Below, in pieces: positions 53,106 to 57,555 of a stretch of 64,000 bases of DNA. The stretch lies in contig CACORJ010000002.1 of the NCBI GenBank assembly GCA_902629575.1, positions 62,001 to 126,000 on the forward strand, written 5' to 3'. A program made the position numbers and the translations under genes. How positions within the stretch are numbered: the first letter of the stretch is position 1; each line of letters starts with the position of its first letter. This DNA is from an uncultured Pelagibacteraceae bacterium (GTDB lineage Bacteria > Pseudomonadota > Alphaproteobacteria > Pelagibacterales > Pelagibacteraceae). The notes under the pieces are model-generated. The model saw only the letters and a program-made list of their open reading frames with translations. It was not told the origin of the DNA and searched no databases.

Positions 53106-54845
53106 TTAAAAGAAGCCTAATTTTTTCTCACTGTAAGACACATGAAGATTTTTCACTTGTCTGTAATGATTAAGCATCATTTTATGTGTTTCTCTTCCAA
53201 TACCAGATTGTTTGTAACCACCAAATGCAGCATGTGCAGGATAAGCGTGGTAACAGTTTGTCCAAACTCTACCGGCTTGTATTTCTCTGCCCATTCTGTA
53301 AGCGATGTTTCCATTTCTAGTCCAAACACCAGCACCTAAACCATAAAGTGTATCATTAGCAATTTCCAATGCCTCTGCTTCATCTTTAAATTTGGTTACC
53401 GATACAACTGGTCCAAAAATTTCTTCTTGGAAGATACGCATTGAATTATTACCTTCAAAAATAGTTGGCTCAATATAATTTCCTTTTTCTAAACCACTAT
53501 TGATTTTAGCAACATTTCCACCACATAGAACTTTTGCACCTTCTTTCTTACCTAAATCAAGATAAGATTTAATTTTTTCCATTTGTTCTAATGATGCCTG
53601 TGCACCAATCATTGTTTCCATTTTCAAAGGATTATCTTGCTTGACAGCTTTAGTTCTAGCAATAGCTTTTTCCATGAATTTATCATAAATAGACTCTTGA
53701 ACTAGCACTCTACTTGGGCAAGTACAAACTTCACCTTGGTTTAAAGTGAACATTGCAAAACCTTCAAGACATTTATCAAAGAAATCATCATCTTTAGCCA
53801 TGACATCTTCAAAGAAAATGTTTGGAGATTTTCCACCTAACTCTAACGTAATTGGTATTAAGTTTTGAGATGCATATTGCATGATCAATCTACCAGTCGT
53901 TGTTTCACCAGTAAAAGCAATCTTTTTGATTCTTTTAGATGATGCTAGTGGTTTACCTGCTTCCAAACCATAACCACTTACAACGTTTACTACTCCTGGA
54001 GGTAATAAGTCTCCAATGAGTTCCATAAGTAGCATGATTGATGCTGGTGTTTGCTCAGCTGGTTTTAGCACTACACAGTTACCTGCAGCTAAAGCTGGAG
54101 CAAGTTTCCAAGTTGCCATTAATAATGGAAAATTCCAAGGAATAATCTGACCAACTACACCTAGTGGTTCTGGAATGTGATAAGAATATTCGCTATTACT
54201 TATTTCTGCAACAGAACCTTCTTCTGCTCTGATTACTCCAGCAAAATATCTCCAATGATCTATCACCAGTGGTAAATCAGCAGCCATACATTCTCTTATT
54301 GGCTTACCATTATCTAAACATTCTGCAGTTGCTAATACATTAAGATTTTTCTCAATGACATCTGCAATTTTAAGAAGAATGTTTGATCTTTCCGTGATTG
54401 AAGTCTTACCCCAAGTTGGGAAAGCTGCGTGAGCTGCATCTAATGCAGCATCTACGTCTTTTTCATTTGATCGTGCGATCGAACAGATTACCTCATTTGA
54501 AATCGGAGAAGTATTATCGAAATACTTACCTGATTTTGGCTCCACAAACTTTCCATTTATGTAATTTCCATATTTCGATTTAAATGGAAATTTAACTTTC
54601 AAATGAGAAGTATCTAATACAGATGACACTTTCATAGCTTCTGCACTCATTTTTTTTACTCCTCTTGTTTTTTTTGTTGATTTGAGCTTATTATTTTTTC
54701 TAGATTTTTTTGAACGTTTCTTAGTCGCAGACTTTTTTGTCCTAACTTTTTTTTTCGTTTTTATTTTTTTTCTAGATCTTTTGACCAATTTTTCTTTTCT
54801 TTTTTTGGTCTTTGGCTTTGTTTTGTTCTTTCTTTTAATAGCCAT
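53106..54845 (-). CDS. Aldehyde dehydrogenase with lysine-rich N-terminal extension
   Basis: The frame encodes 579 residues. The ALDH part, from about residue 90, has [16 protein letters not shown] (catalytic Glu) and [15 protein letters not shown] (catalytic Cys) and an end typical of acetaldehyde/AldB-type enzymes. Residues 1-65 are extraordinarily basic (many K-K, K-R, S-R-K repeats), like histone H1 tails. An internal ATG at 54650 (Met66, MSAEAMK) has a near-ideal SD (GAGGAG), so the 514-residue form is probably the main enzyme and the basic tail an alternative N-terminus. Which start is used cannot be settled from sequence. Confidence 0.85.
54659..54665 (-). promoter_or_regulatory. Strong internal Shine-Dalgarno within the aldehyde dehydrogenase frame
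   Basis: AGAGGAG on the minus strand, 8 nt before the ATG at 54648-54650. It suits initiation at Met66 of the long frame, bypassing the lysine-rich tail. The upstream ATG at 54845 has only a weak TAGGT-like element. Confidence 0.65.
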
Positions 54846-54979
54846 GACCTATTTAACTAACATTATTTAAGGGTGTCCAATTGTAAAAATTTAATTTTAC
54901 TACTTATAAGTGTATAAACACAATATATTGTGTTTATTTAAAATTTTATAATATTTTTTATTTAGTATAAATAAACATT

Positions 54980-55570
54980 GTGAAAAATATAAAACCTTTC
55001 GGCCCTTCAATTGGAAAAGTCAATATCTCGAAATTTTTCTTAAAAAAAATAAATAATGAATTTGATTTAAGAACAAATAATAAAAATTTAGATTATAGCG
55101 CAAAATTAGCTAGTCAAATTAAAAATGAGGTCAAGCTTAATAAAGATTTTGTTAAAAAATATTTATCTAAAGAAATAAAGAAAAATATTAAATCTTTCTT
55201 AAAAAAAGAAAAAATTAACAATATTAAGGATATAAAATTATTAGATTTATGGGTCGTAAGACAATTTAAAGGTGAATATAATCCAATTCATTACCACGAA
55301 GGGGATATTTCTGGAGTAGGGTATATTAAAATACCTAAAAATATGACTGAAAATAAAAAAGTTAAAAATAAAAAAATAAAAACTAATGGAACCATTGATT
55401 TTATAAATGGCCAAAAAAATTTTTTAAGTAAAAGTATTTATAACGTTGTACCGAAAATAGGAGAGTTATATTTATTTCCAAACTATTTAATGCATACTGC
55501 TTATCCATTTAATGTTGATGGTGAAAGAAGATCTTTTTCTTTCAACGTAAAATTAACATTCAAAAAGTAG
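54980..55570 (+). CDS. 2OG-Fe(II) oxygenase-like protein
   Basis: A 196-residue protein starting with GTG at 54980. NPIHYHEGDISGVGYIKIP carries the H-x-D/H-type metal loop seen in a family of small 2OG-Fe(II) oxygenases common in marine bacteria and phages, and LFPNYLMHTAYPFNVDGERRSFSFNVKL supplies the distal His and the 2OG-binding Arg. The first 80 residues are lysine-rich and helical. The substrate is unknown. Confidence 0.75.
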   Translation: MKNIKPFGPSIGKVNISKFFLKKINNEFDLRTNNKNLDYSAKLASQIKNEVKLNKDFVKKYLSKEIKKNIKSFLKKEKINNIKDIKLLDLWVVRQFKGEYNPIHYHEGDISGVGYIKIPKNMTENKKVKNKKIKTNGTIDFINGQKNFLSKSIYNVVPKIGELYLFPNYLMHTAYPFNVDGERRSFSFNVKLTFKK

Positions 55571-55604
55571 TTTACAACAACCATAAAAAAAACTATAAAT
55601 AATT

Positions 55605-55647
55605 AGCCGATTTGATCCTATTGCGGGCTTTAACAGCTAAAATGGAG
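55605..55647 (+). promoter_or_regulatory. SAM-II-type riboswitch aptamer upstream of bhmT
   Basis: agcc (55605-55608) pairs with ggct (55626-55629) around a 17 nt loop gatttgatcctattgcg. This loop matches the SAM-II consensus at most conserved positions (gauuu, then cc, then uauugc). Downstream agctaaaatggag supplies the conserved AGCUAAA and the GG bases that pair with the loop CC to form the pseudoknot. It should bind S-adenosylmethionine. I judged the match against the known SAM-II aptamer sequence from memory, not by covariance search. Confidence 0.78.
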
Positions 55648-55667
55648 TCTTCAATAAATCAATAAGC

Positions 55668-55725
55668 GGGTATTTGAACTATATTGTGCACCTTGCATAA
55701 AGCTAAAGCACTAAAAAAGTGAGGA
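55668..55725 (+). promoter_or_regulatory. SAM-V-type riboswitch aptamer overlapping the bhmT ribosome-binding site
   Basis: A second element repeats the SAM-II-like core: gtatttgaac ... agctaaag. Inside it tgtgc (55685-55689) and gcata (55695-55699) form a small stem, and cactaaaaaagtg (55710-55721 area) can fold on itself directly before the SD gagga (55721-55725). SAM binding would thus hide the SD and lower BhmT translation. Tandem SAM-II/SAM-V in front of this gene type has been described in Pelagibacter. Confidence 0.72.
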
Positions 55726-55729
55726 TATA

Positions 55730-56638
55730 ATGAACTTAGATTTTTTTAAACAAACAAGAATTTTAGATGGTGGAATGGGTCAAGAACTTCTTTCAAGAGG
55801 TATGATTCCTTATGGAACTCTATGGAGTGCAAGTGCTTTAATCCAAGAAAAATACCACAAACTTTTACTGGACACTCATTTAGACTTTATTAAATCTGGT
55901 GCCGAAGTAATTGTTACTACAACATTCACCACTAGAAAAACCAGATTAAAAGATAATGGCGTAGAAGATAAATTTGAATATTTGAATAGAAAAGCTGGAG
56001 AGATTGCTTGTAAAGCAAAAAAGATTTATCCTAATATATTAATTGCAGGCGGTTTACCCCCTCAATATTCAACTTATGAAGCTGACACAAGATCTGATAA
56101 AGAAATTGCTGATGATTTTAGTGAACAAGCAAATTTATTAGATCCATACATAGATTTTTTTTATTTTGATGTTTTAAGTAGTGTGAGAGAGTTTCAAATA
56201 GCAATCGACAGTATAAGATCATTTAATAAACCGTATTTAATTGGTGCTCATATTTCTGAAGGGATTCATTTACCGAGTGGGGAAAAAATTTCTGAGATTG
56301 TAACAAAAATTAATCATGAAAAACTTCTGGGAATAATGTTGTCTTGTATATCTCCTGAAAATTATGAATTAAATCAAAATGAGCTTAAGAACCTAAAAAT
56401 ACCCTTTGGATTTAAGCTCAATGCATTTATAAGAACCAATCCCAAACCAAATTACACAGGGGCCTATAAAAAAAGTAAGTCAGGAAATCCGAATGAATTT
56501 TTAGGTGTAAGAGATGACCTTACCCCTAATAAAATGCTTGAGTTTGCTAAAAAATTTAAAAAAAATGGTGCTACTATTTTGGGTGGATGTTGTGAAATTG
56601 GTCCAGCTCATATAAAAGAATTTGCAAAACTTAAATAA
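55730..56638 (+). CDS. bhmT: Homocysteine S-methyltransferase-family protein (betaine-homocysteine methyltransferase-like)
   Basis: The 302-residue protein begins with ILDGGMGQELLSRG. The zinc triad is visible: Cys206 in MLSCISPEN and Cys287-Cys288 in LGGCCEIGPAHI. The family transfers a methyl group from betaine, S-methylmethionine or DMSP-like donors to homocysteine, making methionine. Control by the SAM-responsive leader just upstream fits methionine/SAM supply. The donor is not determined; it is shorter than mammalian BHMT (about 400 residues). Confidence 0.9.
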   Translation: MNLDFFKQTRILDGGMGQELLSRGMIPYGTLWSASALIQEKYHKLLLDTHLDFIKSGAEVIVTTTFTTRKTRLKDNGVEDKFEYLNRKAGEIACKAKKIYPNILIAGGLPPQYSTYEADTRSDKEIADDFSEQANLLDPYIDFFYFDVLSSVREFQIAIDSIRSFNKPYLIGAHISEGIHLPSGEKISEIVTKINHEKLLGIMLSCISPENYELNQNELKNLKIPFGFKLNAFIRTNPKPNYTGAYKKSKSGNPNEFLGVRDDLTPNKMLEFAKKFKKNGATILGGCCEIGPAHIKEFAKLK

Positions 56639-56658
56639 TTTACAAAATAAAATAGTAA

Positions 56659-57555
56659 ATGAAAAATTTAAAAGATTTAACTGTTTTAATTGTTACTTAT
56701 AATACTGACAAAAAAATACTTTTAAATTGCATAAAAAAAATCGATAAAAAAGTAAAAGTTCTAATTGTTGAAAACTCAAAAAAATTTATTCACAAAAAAA
56801 TTTTTGAAAAATTTAGAAATGTCAAATCTATTTGCAGTGGAGATAATTTAGGTTATGCTAATGGAAATAATTTTGGTTTAAATAAAATTAAAACAAAATA
56901 CGTTTTAATTTTAAATCCAGATGTCTTATGTGATAAAAACTTATTTAGAAATATATCTAATTTAATCAAAAAAAAAATAAATTTTCATATTGTTGGTTGT
57001 CAATATTTAAAAGATAAAATTTTTATGCCCGCTGGGTTTTTTGACAAAAAAAAGAATAATGATTTTAAAGAAAAGTTTAGAAAAAAAAACTTGAAGTATC
57101 TAACTAAAGTTGAATGGGTAACTGGTTGTTCGATGTTAATAGACCTCTCTAAATTCAAGAAAAAAAATATTTTTGATAAAAATTACTTTTTATTTTTTGA
57201 AGAATTTGATCTATGTAAAAAAATCATAAAAAATGGGGGAAATGTCTATACTTGTAATGATTTAAAAATACATCATTTGGGGTTCAAAAGTTCGTTAGGG
57301 AATAATATTGATGATAGAAAAAATGCAAATATTGTTAGAGAATGGCATTGGATGTGGTCAAGTTTTTATTTCTATAAGAAGCATAATGGATACTTTTTTT
57401 CTTTAAAAAAATTTATTGGTAAGTTCACAAGGTCATTCATAAAAATGATATTTTATTCATTAATGTTTAATCACAATCAAAAAAATAAGTATAAATACAG
57501 ACTTCTTGGTCTTTATAATTCGTCAACAAACAAACCCGCATTATTTAGGGGATAA
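56659..57555 (+). CDS. Glycosyltransferase family 2 protein
   Basis: A 298-residue GT-A enzyme. TVLIVTYNTDKKILLNCI opens the nucleotide-binding domain, GDNLGYANGNNFG and YVLILNPDV contain the metal-binding aspartate region, and VEWVTGCSMLIDL with NYFLFFEEFDLCKKI is characteristic of rhamnosyltransferase-like GT2 proteins. It probably adds a sugar to a surface glycan. It is unusually lysine-rich. It stops one base before the convergent DMT gene's end. Confidence 0.88.
   Translation: MKNLKDLTVLIVTYNTDKKILLNCIKKIDKKVKVLIVENSKKFIHKKIFEKFRNVKSICSGDNLGYANGNNFGLNKIKTKYVLILNPDVLCDKNLFRNISNLIKKKINFHIVGCQYLKDKIFMPAGFFDKKKNNDFKEKFRKKNLKYLTKVEWVTGCSMLIDLSKFKKKNIFDKNYFLFFEEFDLCKKIIKNGGNVYTCNDLKIHHLGFKSSLGNNIDDRKNANIVREWHWMWSSFYFYKKHNGYFFSLKKFIGKFTRSFIKMIFYSLMFNHNQKNKYKYRLLGLYNSSTNKPALFRG

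Follow-up and report, generated by a model that had tools for sequence, protein, structure and literature searches.

The closest described relatives of the leader analyzed here are the tandem SAM-II/SAM-V riboswitches, such as the one ahead of bhmT in Pelagibacter ubique HTCC1062. According to PMC9481103, every one of the original 120 tandems has an intrinsic terminator after SAM-II, and 149 tandems are now known, a count made with Rfam 12.2 and published alignments. A 2009 survey, in the part available, gives SAM-II/SAM-V only for bhmt and gives SAM-V for metY and mmuM (PMC2704228). A 2016 paper placed SAM-II before bhmT and metX and described methionine synthesis in HTCC1062 as controlled by a unique riboswitch array (PMC5069961). 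SAM-V typically lies no more than ten nucleotides (nt) from the start codon of a methionine gene (PMC2704228), and in its SAM-bound structure part of the Shine-Dalgarno (SD) sequence is pulled into a short P2a beside P2 (PMC6061858). Text searches of the accessible literature returned no description of a terminator-free SAM-II/SAM-V form; Poiata et al. 2009 may mention one.

Here we analyzed a window of 64,000 nt from an uncultured Pelagibacteraceae bacterium and compared one of its leaders with these systems. We consider it probable (about 0.6) that this leader is a compact, terminator-free SAM-II/SAM-V tandem in which SAM-V blocks ribosome access and SAM-II acts otherwise than by intrinsic termination.

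RESULTS

The leader precedes an mmuM-type gene

The downstream gene (55730-56638, + strand) encodes a homocysteine S-methyltransferase (PF02574, E = 4.2e-47) of 302 amino acids (aa), which we classed as mmuM-type from its identity to the protein of the HTCC1062 mmuM locus. As our HTCC1062 reference we took a genome with SAM-V coordinates identical to those published for HTCC1062. The product shares 70.9% identity over 302 aa with the mmuM-locus protein of this HTCC1062-like genome versus 27.7% over 119 aa with its bhmT product, and on this ground we rejected bhmT as the downstream gene. The two mmuM loci also have the gene upstream in common (66% over 196 aa). An NCBIfam search with the product reached no cutoff, and its solved relatives (MetH, MmuM, and BHMT proteins) had similar scores. 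The protein carries Cys206 and GGCC at residues 285 to 288, which we take to be the motif of the zinc-site members of the family. Both rho and RNase E/G are encoded in the window's genome.

On the other strand, 53106-54845 (−) encodes an ExaC-like aldehyde dehydrogenase of 579 aa, in which a lysine-rich N-terminal stretch of roughly 65 residues precedes the enzyme domain; the profile aligns from residue 86 onward. By eye, the homocysteine methyltransferase (HMT) genes of L069-L076 also have a reversed start of this kind upstream.

A SAM-V riboswitch adjoins the ribosome binding site

Searching the whole window with Rfam 15 gave two matches above the curated cutoffs, one tRNA and one SAM-V riboswitch (RF01826). 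The latter, at 55659-55722 (+), scored 69.3 bits against a gathering cutoff of 41 (E = 3.1e-9 for the whole window). P1 pairs 55668-55671 with 55690-55693, the pseudoknot P2 pairs 55684-55689 with 55708-55714, and P3 pairs 55695-55696 with 55702-55703. An SD-like GAGGA (55721-55725, +) adjoins P2, and the end of the element at 55722 is within ten nt of the start codon of the methionine gene (ATG, 55730). The layout is that of the published structure, with part of the SD drawn into P2a beside P2. Across 64 sequences, 97.9% of the cells were paired and double changes were found at 5 pairs in 50 cells; 2 of 500 shuffles reached the 5 pairs, and none of 500 reached the 50 cells. The element is beyond doubt a plain, ordinary SAM-V and is predicted to bind SAM. 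The initial annotation had placed a second core copy over the SD of bhmT; its position just ahead of the start codon stands, and the gene is the mmuM-type one.

We also noted a CACU-AAAAA-AGUG stretch (55709-55721), a possible small hairpin that would use the 3′ strand of SAM-V P2 and touch the SD. This motif occurs in 52 of 149 tandems; by eye, metY-type leaders show AAGGAG there.

A short SAM-II-type element lies upstream of SAM-V

The initial annotation had described two copies of a related core, and both are there: the RF01826 match is the second, and the first is an element with an AGCC/GGCU stem, which we delimit at 55603-55649 (+). In this short-form, SAM-II-type element, P1 pairs AGCC (55605-55608) with GGCU (55626-55629). 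Its loop holds AUUU, CC, and UAUUGC, and GCUAAAA and then UGGA (55643-55646) follow downstream. The pseudoknot P2 would pair a 5′ strand at 55616-55624 (UCC, UAUUGC) with a 3′ strand at 55636-55646 (GCUAAAAUGGA), a layout that we presume from the SAM-II crystal structure. The SAM-II core AUUU..CC..AUUGC..GCUAAA is present without mismatch, and we assume that the SAM-contacting positions lie within it. Some of these positions can also be found in PMC11508383. We found the core pattern a single time in the window and in none of 100 shuffles. R1, a covariance model built from 54 distinct segments, scores the element at 66.7 bits, the window itself being 1 of the 54.

A permissive scan of 55400-55900 with the Rfam SAM-II models (RF00521 and RF01726) to an E value of 10 gave no match, and neither did leaders L013, L014, L022, L036, and L042 at an E value of ≤5. 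The Rfam models named in the initial annotation thus recovered SAM-V at 69.3 bits and no SAM-II; the gathering cutoff that the upstream element fails is a detection limit and not a structural trait. In nested folding of 80 leaders, P1 had a probability of 0 in all 80, which is no argument against SAM-II, because a nested folding model cannot hold pseudoknots.

A leader peptide starting from the AUG in UAAAAUGGA was considered and rejected; that position is T in 30 of 64 sequences and A in 29 of 64. A further SAM-II-like element in the window's genome (L005:46-120) scored 33.7 bits against a cutoff of 44 with RF01726 and 24.9 against 36 with RF00521.

Terminator-free tandems are usual among the listed SAM-V elements of the genus

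Of 399 genomes of the genus searched at the protein level, 197 had a match at an E value of ≤1e-40. We read 90 leaders from this search, one of which (L110) ends at a contig boundary, and found the strict upstream-element pattern in 49 and a version with one change in L081, L084, and L089 (52/90). L088 and L094 keep the short element, and Rfam found no SAM-V there; the SAM-V of L067 looks decayed by eye. A SAM-V search of the family matched 190 of 297 genomes at an E value of ≤0.01. Among the best 30 of these SAM-V loci, 28 have the short element upstream, mostly in metY leaders, and the remaining 2 are SAM-II plus terminator plus SAM-V. The gene behind leader L013 is above the NCBIfam cutoff for O-acetylhomoserine sulfhydrylase. 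In HTCC1062, the metY and mmuM leaders both carry the short SAM-II-type element.

Our first alignments (A1, with 64 of 80 distinct tandems; A2; and R1) were gathered with a pattern requiring GATTT, ATTGC, and GCTAAA and so carry a selection bias. Because the collecting pattern demanded the core, 16 of the 19 invariant columns and the unvarying P2 pairs are partly built in. For this reason, we sampled again by SAM-V alone, taking the 63 listed SAM-V matches of the genus regardless of SAM-II and reading all of their leaders; weaker, unlisted matches of the genus lie outside this count. We found that 57 of the 63 listed leaders carry the short element without an intrinsic terminator, and that GATTT, ATTGC, and GCTAAA are exact in all 57. 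In the same 57, which include HTCC1062 metY and mmuM, an R1 match lies 5 to 14 nt upstream of the SAM-V model. The other 6 (L029, L032, L150, L173, L174, and L175) have SAM-II, an intrinsic terminator, and SAM-V, so that SAM-II, short or classical, precedes all 63. The terminator-free tandem is the usual arrangement among the listed SAM-V elements of the genus.

We then used the 56 distinct SAM-V-chosen leaders for covariation. P1 and P2 were paired in 94.8% of cells versus 32 to 62% when slid. Double changes were found at 3 pairs in 9 cells, neither of which was matched by any of 500 shuffles, and the covariation score was likewise reached by 0 of 500; 6 of the 12 pairs show no variation. The pattern-collected set gave a weak result, with 59 of 500 shuffles reaching its paired cells, 28 its double-change cells, and 40 its score.

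The element occurs beyond the genus

R1, with the window among its 54 distinct elements, matched 84 of 297 family genomes at an E value of ≤0.01. We fetched 20 weaker matches. Twelve precede a metX-like gene, and the three of these that were checked (L153, L157, and L166) are all above the NCBIfam MetX cutoff. Another five combine a short SAM-II with a terminator and SAM-V, two (L167 and L170) have a metY-like gene downstream and no SAM-V, and one (L172) is a chance match.

A core-pattern scan of 84,980 species genomes gave at least 119 stretches, of which 80 loci are among the matches listed. SAR11 names are borne by 78 of these 80, which, together with the family SAM-V search, bears out the Pelagibacter origin that had been read from the sequence. 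Among the matches listed, 74 of the 80 elements were called tandem; of the uncalled, L219 was missed by the pattern through one SAM-V change, and L272 is cut by the end of its stretch. L237, L252, L257, and L265 have no SAM-V. Ten downstream genes of the 80 listed loci were called "other," partly through parsing failures. In IMG/VR, a search for phage carriage found 0 exact matches to the core pattern.

One core match, in a Rubrivivax bin (L237), lies before metX and is recognized by Rfam as SAM-II (36.7 bits versus a cutoff of 36); this leader carries the same core as the short SAM-II-type element. From the sequence features, we conclude that the upstream element of the window is a SAM-II-type aptamer of short form and a putative SAM binder. 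That the first copy fits SAM-II, as originally proposed, agrees with its core, its AGCC/GGCU stem, the P1 and P2 covariation, and the core of L237; the Rfam SAM-II match is what it lacks.

Two other loci deserve mention. In a Spirochaetota bin (L252, 2898-2919), the core before metK is SAM-II-like by eye and has no Rfam SAM-family match. In L265 (approximately 1773-1850), an mmuM-type leader that has no SAM-V, the SAM-II-complementary strand of the linker overlaps an SD-like CGGAU near the start codon.

The mRNA probably starts at the SAM-II-type element

Upstream of P1 we predicted a −35 box, TTTACA (55571-55576, +), and a −10 box, TATAAA (55594-55599, +), with 10 of 12 consensus matches and a spacer of 17. 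The distance from the end of the −10 box to the GCC of P1 is 6 nt, as it is in 47 of 62 mmuM-type (HMT-type) and 83 of 99 metY-type leaders. A promoter score of at least 9 was found in 55 of 62 mmuM-type and 31 of 99 metY-type leaders versus about 10% in shuffles. Since the −10 box lies 6 nt before P1, the mRNA probably starts at or beside the SAM-II-type element.

The linker lacks a terminator and is often complementary to SAM-II

The linker of the window (55647-55667, +) is about 20 nt long. A terminator scan of 54850-57000 gave 0 terminator-like sites (0.6 were expected in shuffles); the same scan found the terminators of the classical tandems L135 and L029, which served as positive controls. 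Across 149 distinct tandems, P2 and SAM-V P1 are joined by a linker of 19 to 30 nt, and its longest U run is 1 or 2 in 98, 3 or 4 in 40, and 5 or 6 in 11, with none longer than 6. The SAM-V-chosen leaders are similar (31, 20, and 5 of 56, respectively). With leaders split into metY-type and HMT (mmuM-type) by a rough pattern, the 8 nt after P2 hold a mean of 3.7 U in the former and 2.1 in the latter.

In metY-type leaders, the end of the linker (AAAUCGGU) is the reverse complement of the SAM-II 5′ strand (GCCGAUUU), and we named the resulting helix Palt. Compared with shuffled linkers, complementarity had a P value of <0.05 in 44 of 56 SAM-V-chosen leaders versus 0 of 56 for a control SAM-V segment, and in 50 of 80 versus 1 of 80 in the pattern-collected set; the sequences are related, and these P values are not independent. 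Complementarity was weak in linkers other than the YGG type (P < 0.05 in 8 of 52). Where the SAM-II 5′ strand has GUU, 19 of 23 leaders show better binding of the strand by their own linker, and 1 shows worse; with GAU, the corresponding numbers are 64 and 26 of 126. Palt was paired in 86.6% of cells of the SAM-V-chosen set versus 15 to 56% when slid, and it showed 0 double changes there, with a covariation score reached by 435 of 500 shuffles. In A1, which holds more mmuM-type leaders, it was paired in 82.1% of cells with 2 double-change cells, from C-G to U-A, and RNAalifold on A1 does not choose Palt. Pairing was also counted in 111 linkers, but these had been chosen by their last bases, and this biased count was left out of the evidence; the A3 alignment (68 of 111) enters no count.

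The linker of the window was no more complementary to the SAM-II 5′ strand than shuffles (P = 0.617 and 0.61). Its predicted pairs are CCG/CGG (55607-55609 with 55667-55669) and UUGAU/AUCAA (55612-55616 with 55658-55662). In nested ligand-free folding of 80 leaders, pairing of the SAM-II 5′ strand with the linker outweighed P1, and the rod fold of ten SAM-II-plus-linker stretches had z scores of −0.6 to −3.0, that of the window being −1.7. A ligand-free rod ending at SAM-V is therefore likely in metY-type leaders and is suggested for the window.

In classical terminator tandems, linker complementarity had a P value of <0.05 in 0 of 28, a test in which the parser cut the linker short in L032 and L150 and skipped L174. 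In intermediate tandems (short SAM-II, terminator, and SAM-V), it did so in 3 of 5. Palt cannot serve termination in these, because it lies behind the terminator. We also rejected Palt as the explanation for the linker's reported masking of SAM-II in HTCC1062 bhmT (P = 0.80 for that leader).

DISCUSSION

The two elements are present, conserved, and fixed in spacing, with no terminator, and the linker is complementary to SAM-II in most metY-type relatives. SAM binding by the first element, the rod in the window sequence, and the level and direction of the SAM-II output are what we infer beyond this. In the model that we favor, the mRNA probably begins at P1 of the short SAM-II-type aptamer, and the SAM-V aptamer starts about 20 nt past SAM-II P2 and sets its own P2 against the ribosome binding site. 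The SAM-II part would be transcribed first, and bound SAM would hold its pseudoknot. Without SAM, the SAM-II strands would pair with each other and with the linker in a rod-like hairpin ending at SAM-V. At high SAM, SAM-V would fold and hide the ribosome binding site, and the enzyme would not be made. With no terminator at hand, a SAM-dependent refolding of SAM-II must therefore act otherwise; its possible routes are the linker to SAM-V, translation directly, mRNA decay, and Rho. Its output most likely tunes SAM-V folding, translation, or mRNA survival, perhaps through the linker, and would make the response to SAM steeper. We prefer, with moderate confidence, a coupling of the two SAM sites at the level of translation.

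In sulfur-limited HTCC1062, mRNA rose 33.8-fold for bhmT, 7.1-fold for metY, and 6.1-fold for mmuM (PMC5069961). The bhmT leader of HTCC1062 is a classical tandem, and its metY and mmuM leaders are short tandems. These increases fit an mRNA-level effect in both tandem forms, larger with a terminator, and are no proof of it. Since SAM-V is called translational, the rise of metY and mmuM mRNA would count for a role of SAM-II.

The same rise can be set to the account of the classical bi-mechanism, in which SAM-II stops transcription and SAM-V acts on translation, here by way of Rho or of a pseudoknot with a weak U tract. This is the published model for SAM-II/SAM-V tandems (PMC9481103). The genome has rho, and by our own pattern the metY-type leaders average 3.7 U after P2, but mmuM-type leaders have only 2.1, none of the 149 linkers has a U run longer than 6, and a scan able to find the terminators of L135 and L029 gave none around this leader. 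We consider this explanation unlikely. The changed metY and mmuM mRNA levels, the RNase E/G gene, and the place of P1 at the predicted mRNA start in most leaders would also suit an element that sets mRNA stability, its rod or pseudoknot protecting the 5′ end from, or exposing it to, 5′-end-dependent decay. However, the 5′ end is paired in both folds, and mRNA changes may follow from translation; we regard this reading as quite unlikely. The least likely is that SAM-II is a leftover from an ancestral tandem that lost its terminator and left SAM-V to work alone. In its favor, other genera of the family retain SAM-II, terminator, and SAM-V, Rfam no longer recognizes the element, and the SAM-II domain is masked in the full-length HTCC1062 bhmT RNA (PMC11508383), so that a response cannot be taken for granted for aptamers in leaders of this kind. 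Against it, all 57 of 57 leaders hold the core without a mismatch, and they precede two unrelated genes; P1 and P2 pairing is maintained through double changes, the distance to the −10 box is fixed, and the element is kept where SAM-V was lost (L088 and L094).

The preferred terminator-free tandem, acting on translation, can be extended tentatively. Most Pelagibacter SAM-V elements, including that of HTCC1062 metY, which was crystallized by itself, could be the second half of a two-site device with an overlooked short SAM-II at the extreme 5′ end of the mRNA, a ligand-free rod ending at SAM-V, and two SAM molecules acting cooperatively on one translation decision with no terminator. Such a device would then operate in a group that ranks among the most abundant marine bacteria. 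We regard this extension as possible and rather doubtful. If it holds, the affinities determined with SAM-V alone cover half of the sensor, and 149 tandems, the published figure (PMC9481103), may be too low. The increase in metY and mmuM transcripts under sulfur limitation in HTCC1062, not an obvious outcome of purely translational switches, becomes testable. The leaders can further be ordered in a natural series, from SAM-II followed by a terminator, through a short SAM-II that has both a terminator and a complementary linker and one that lacks the terminator, to a short SAM-II with no SAM-V behind it; this series allows one to study how one expression platform turns into another.

Comparison with known systems

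Like the HTCC1062 bhmT tandem, the window has a SAM-II-type aptamer 5′ of SAM-V ahead of a SAR11 methionine-synthesis gene. The bhmT tandem, as far as its published description was available, has a longer P1, an intrinsic terminator, and an intergenic region of 261 nt; in contrast, the window has a P1 of 3 to 4 bp, a linker of about 20 nt, and no terminator. The initial annotation had equated the arrangement with that reported for Pelagibacter bhmT, and this does not hold: the published form has a terminator between the aptamers (L029; PMC9481103). Because no intrinsic terminator follows SAM-II, we do not file the window as a published bi-mechanism tandem. We noted a further SAM-V of 57.6 bits (L029:305-369, − strand) downstream of bhmT in the HTCC1062-like genome, probably in an osmC leader.

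Closer in form are L155, L159, L161, L162, and L169, from the other Pelagibacteraceae genera g3 and g6, which have a GCC-type short SAM-II as in the window but keep an intrinsic terminator in the linker. Compared with SAM-V alone (RF01826 and the metY crystal structure, PMC6061858), the SAM-V of the window is a plain member, but it has a short SAM-II upstream; the metY RNAs of 53 and 55 nt given in the available text of PMC6061858 are too short for both aptamers. Compared with SAM-II (SAM_alpha, RF00521; long loop, RF01726), the element of the window has a short P1, a short loop after P1, and a short P2a, and it shares with both families the AUUU, CC, AUUGC, and GCUAAA core and the pseudoknot layout.
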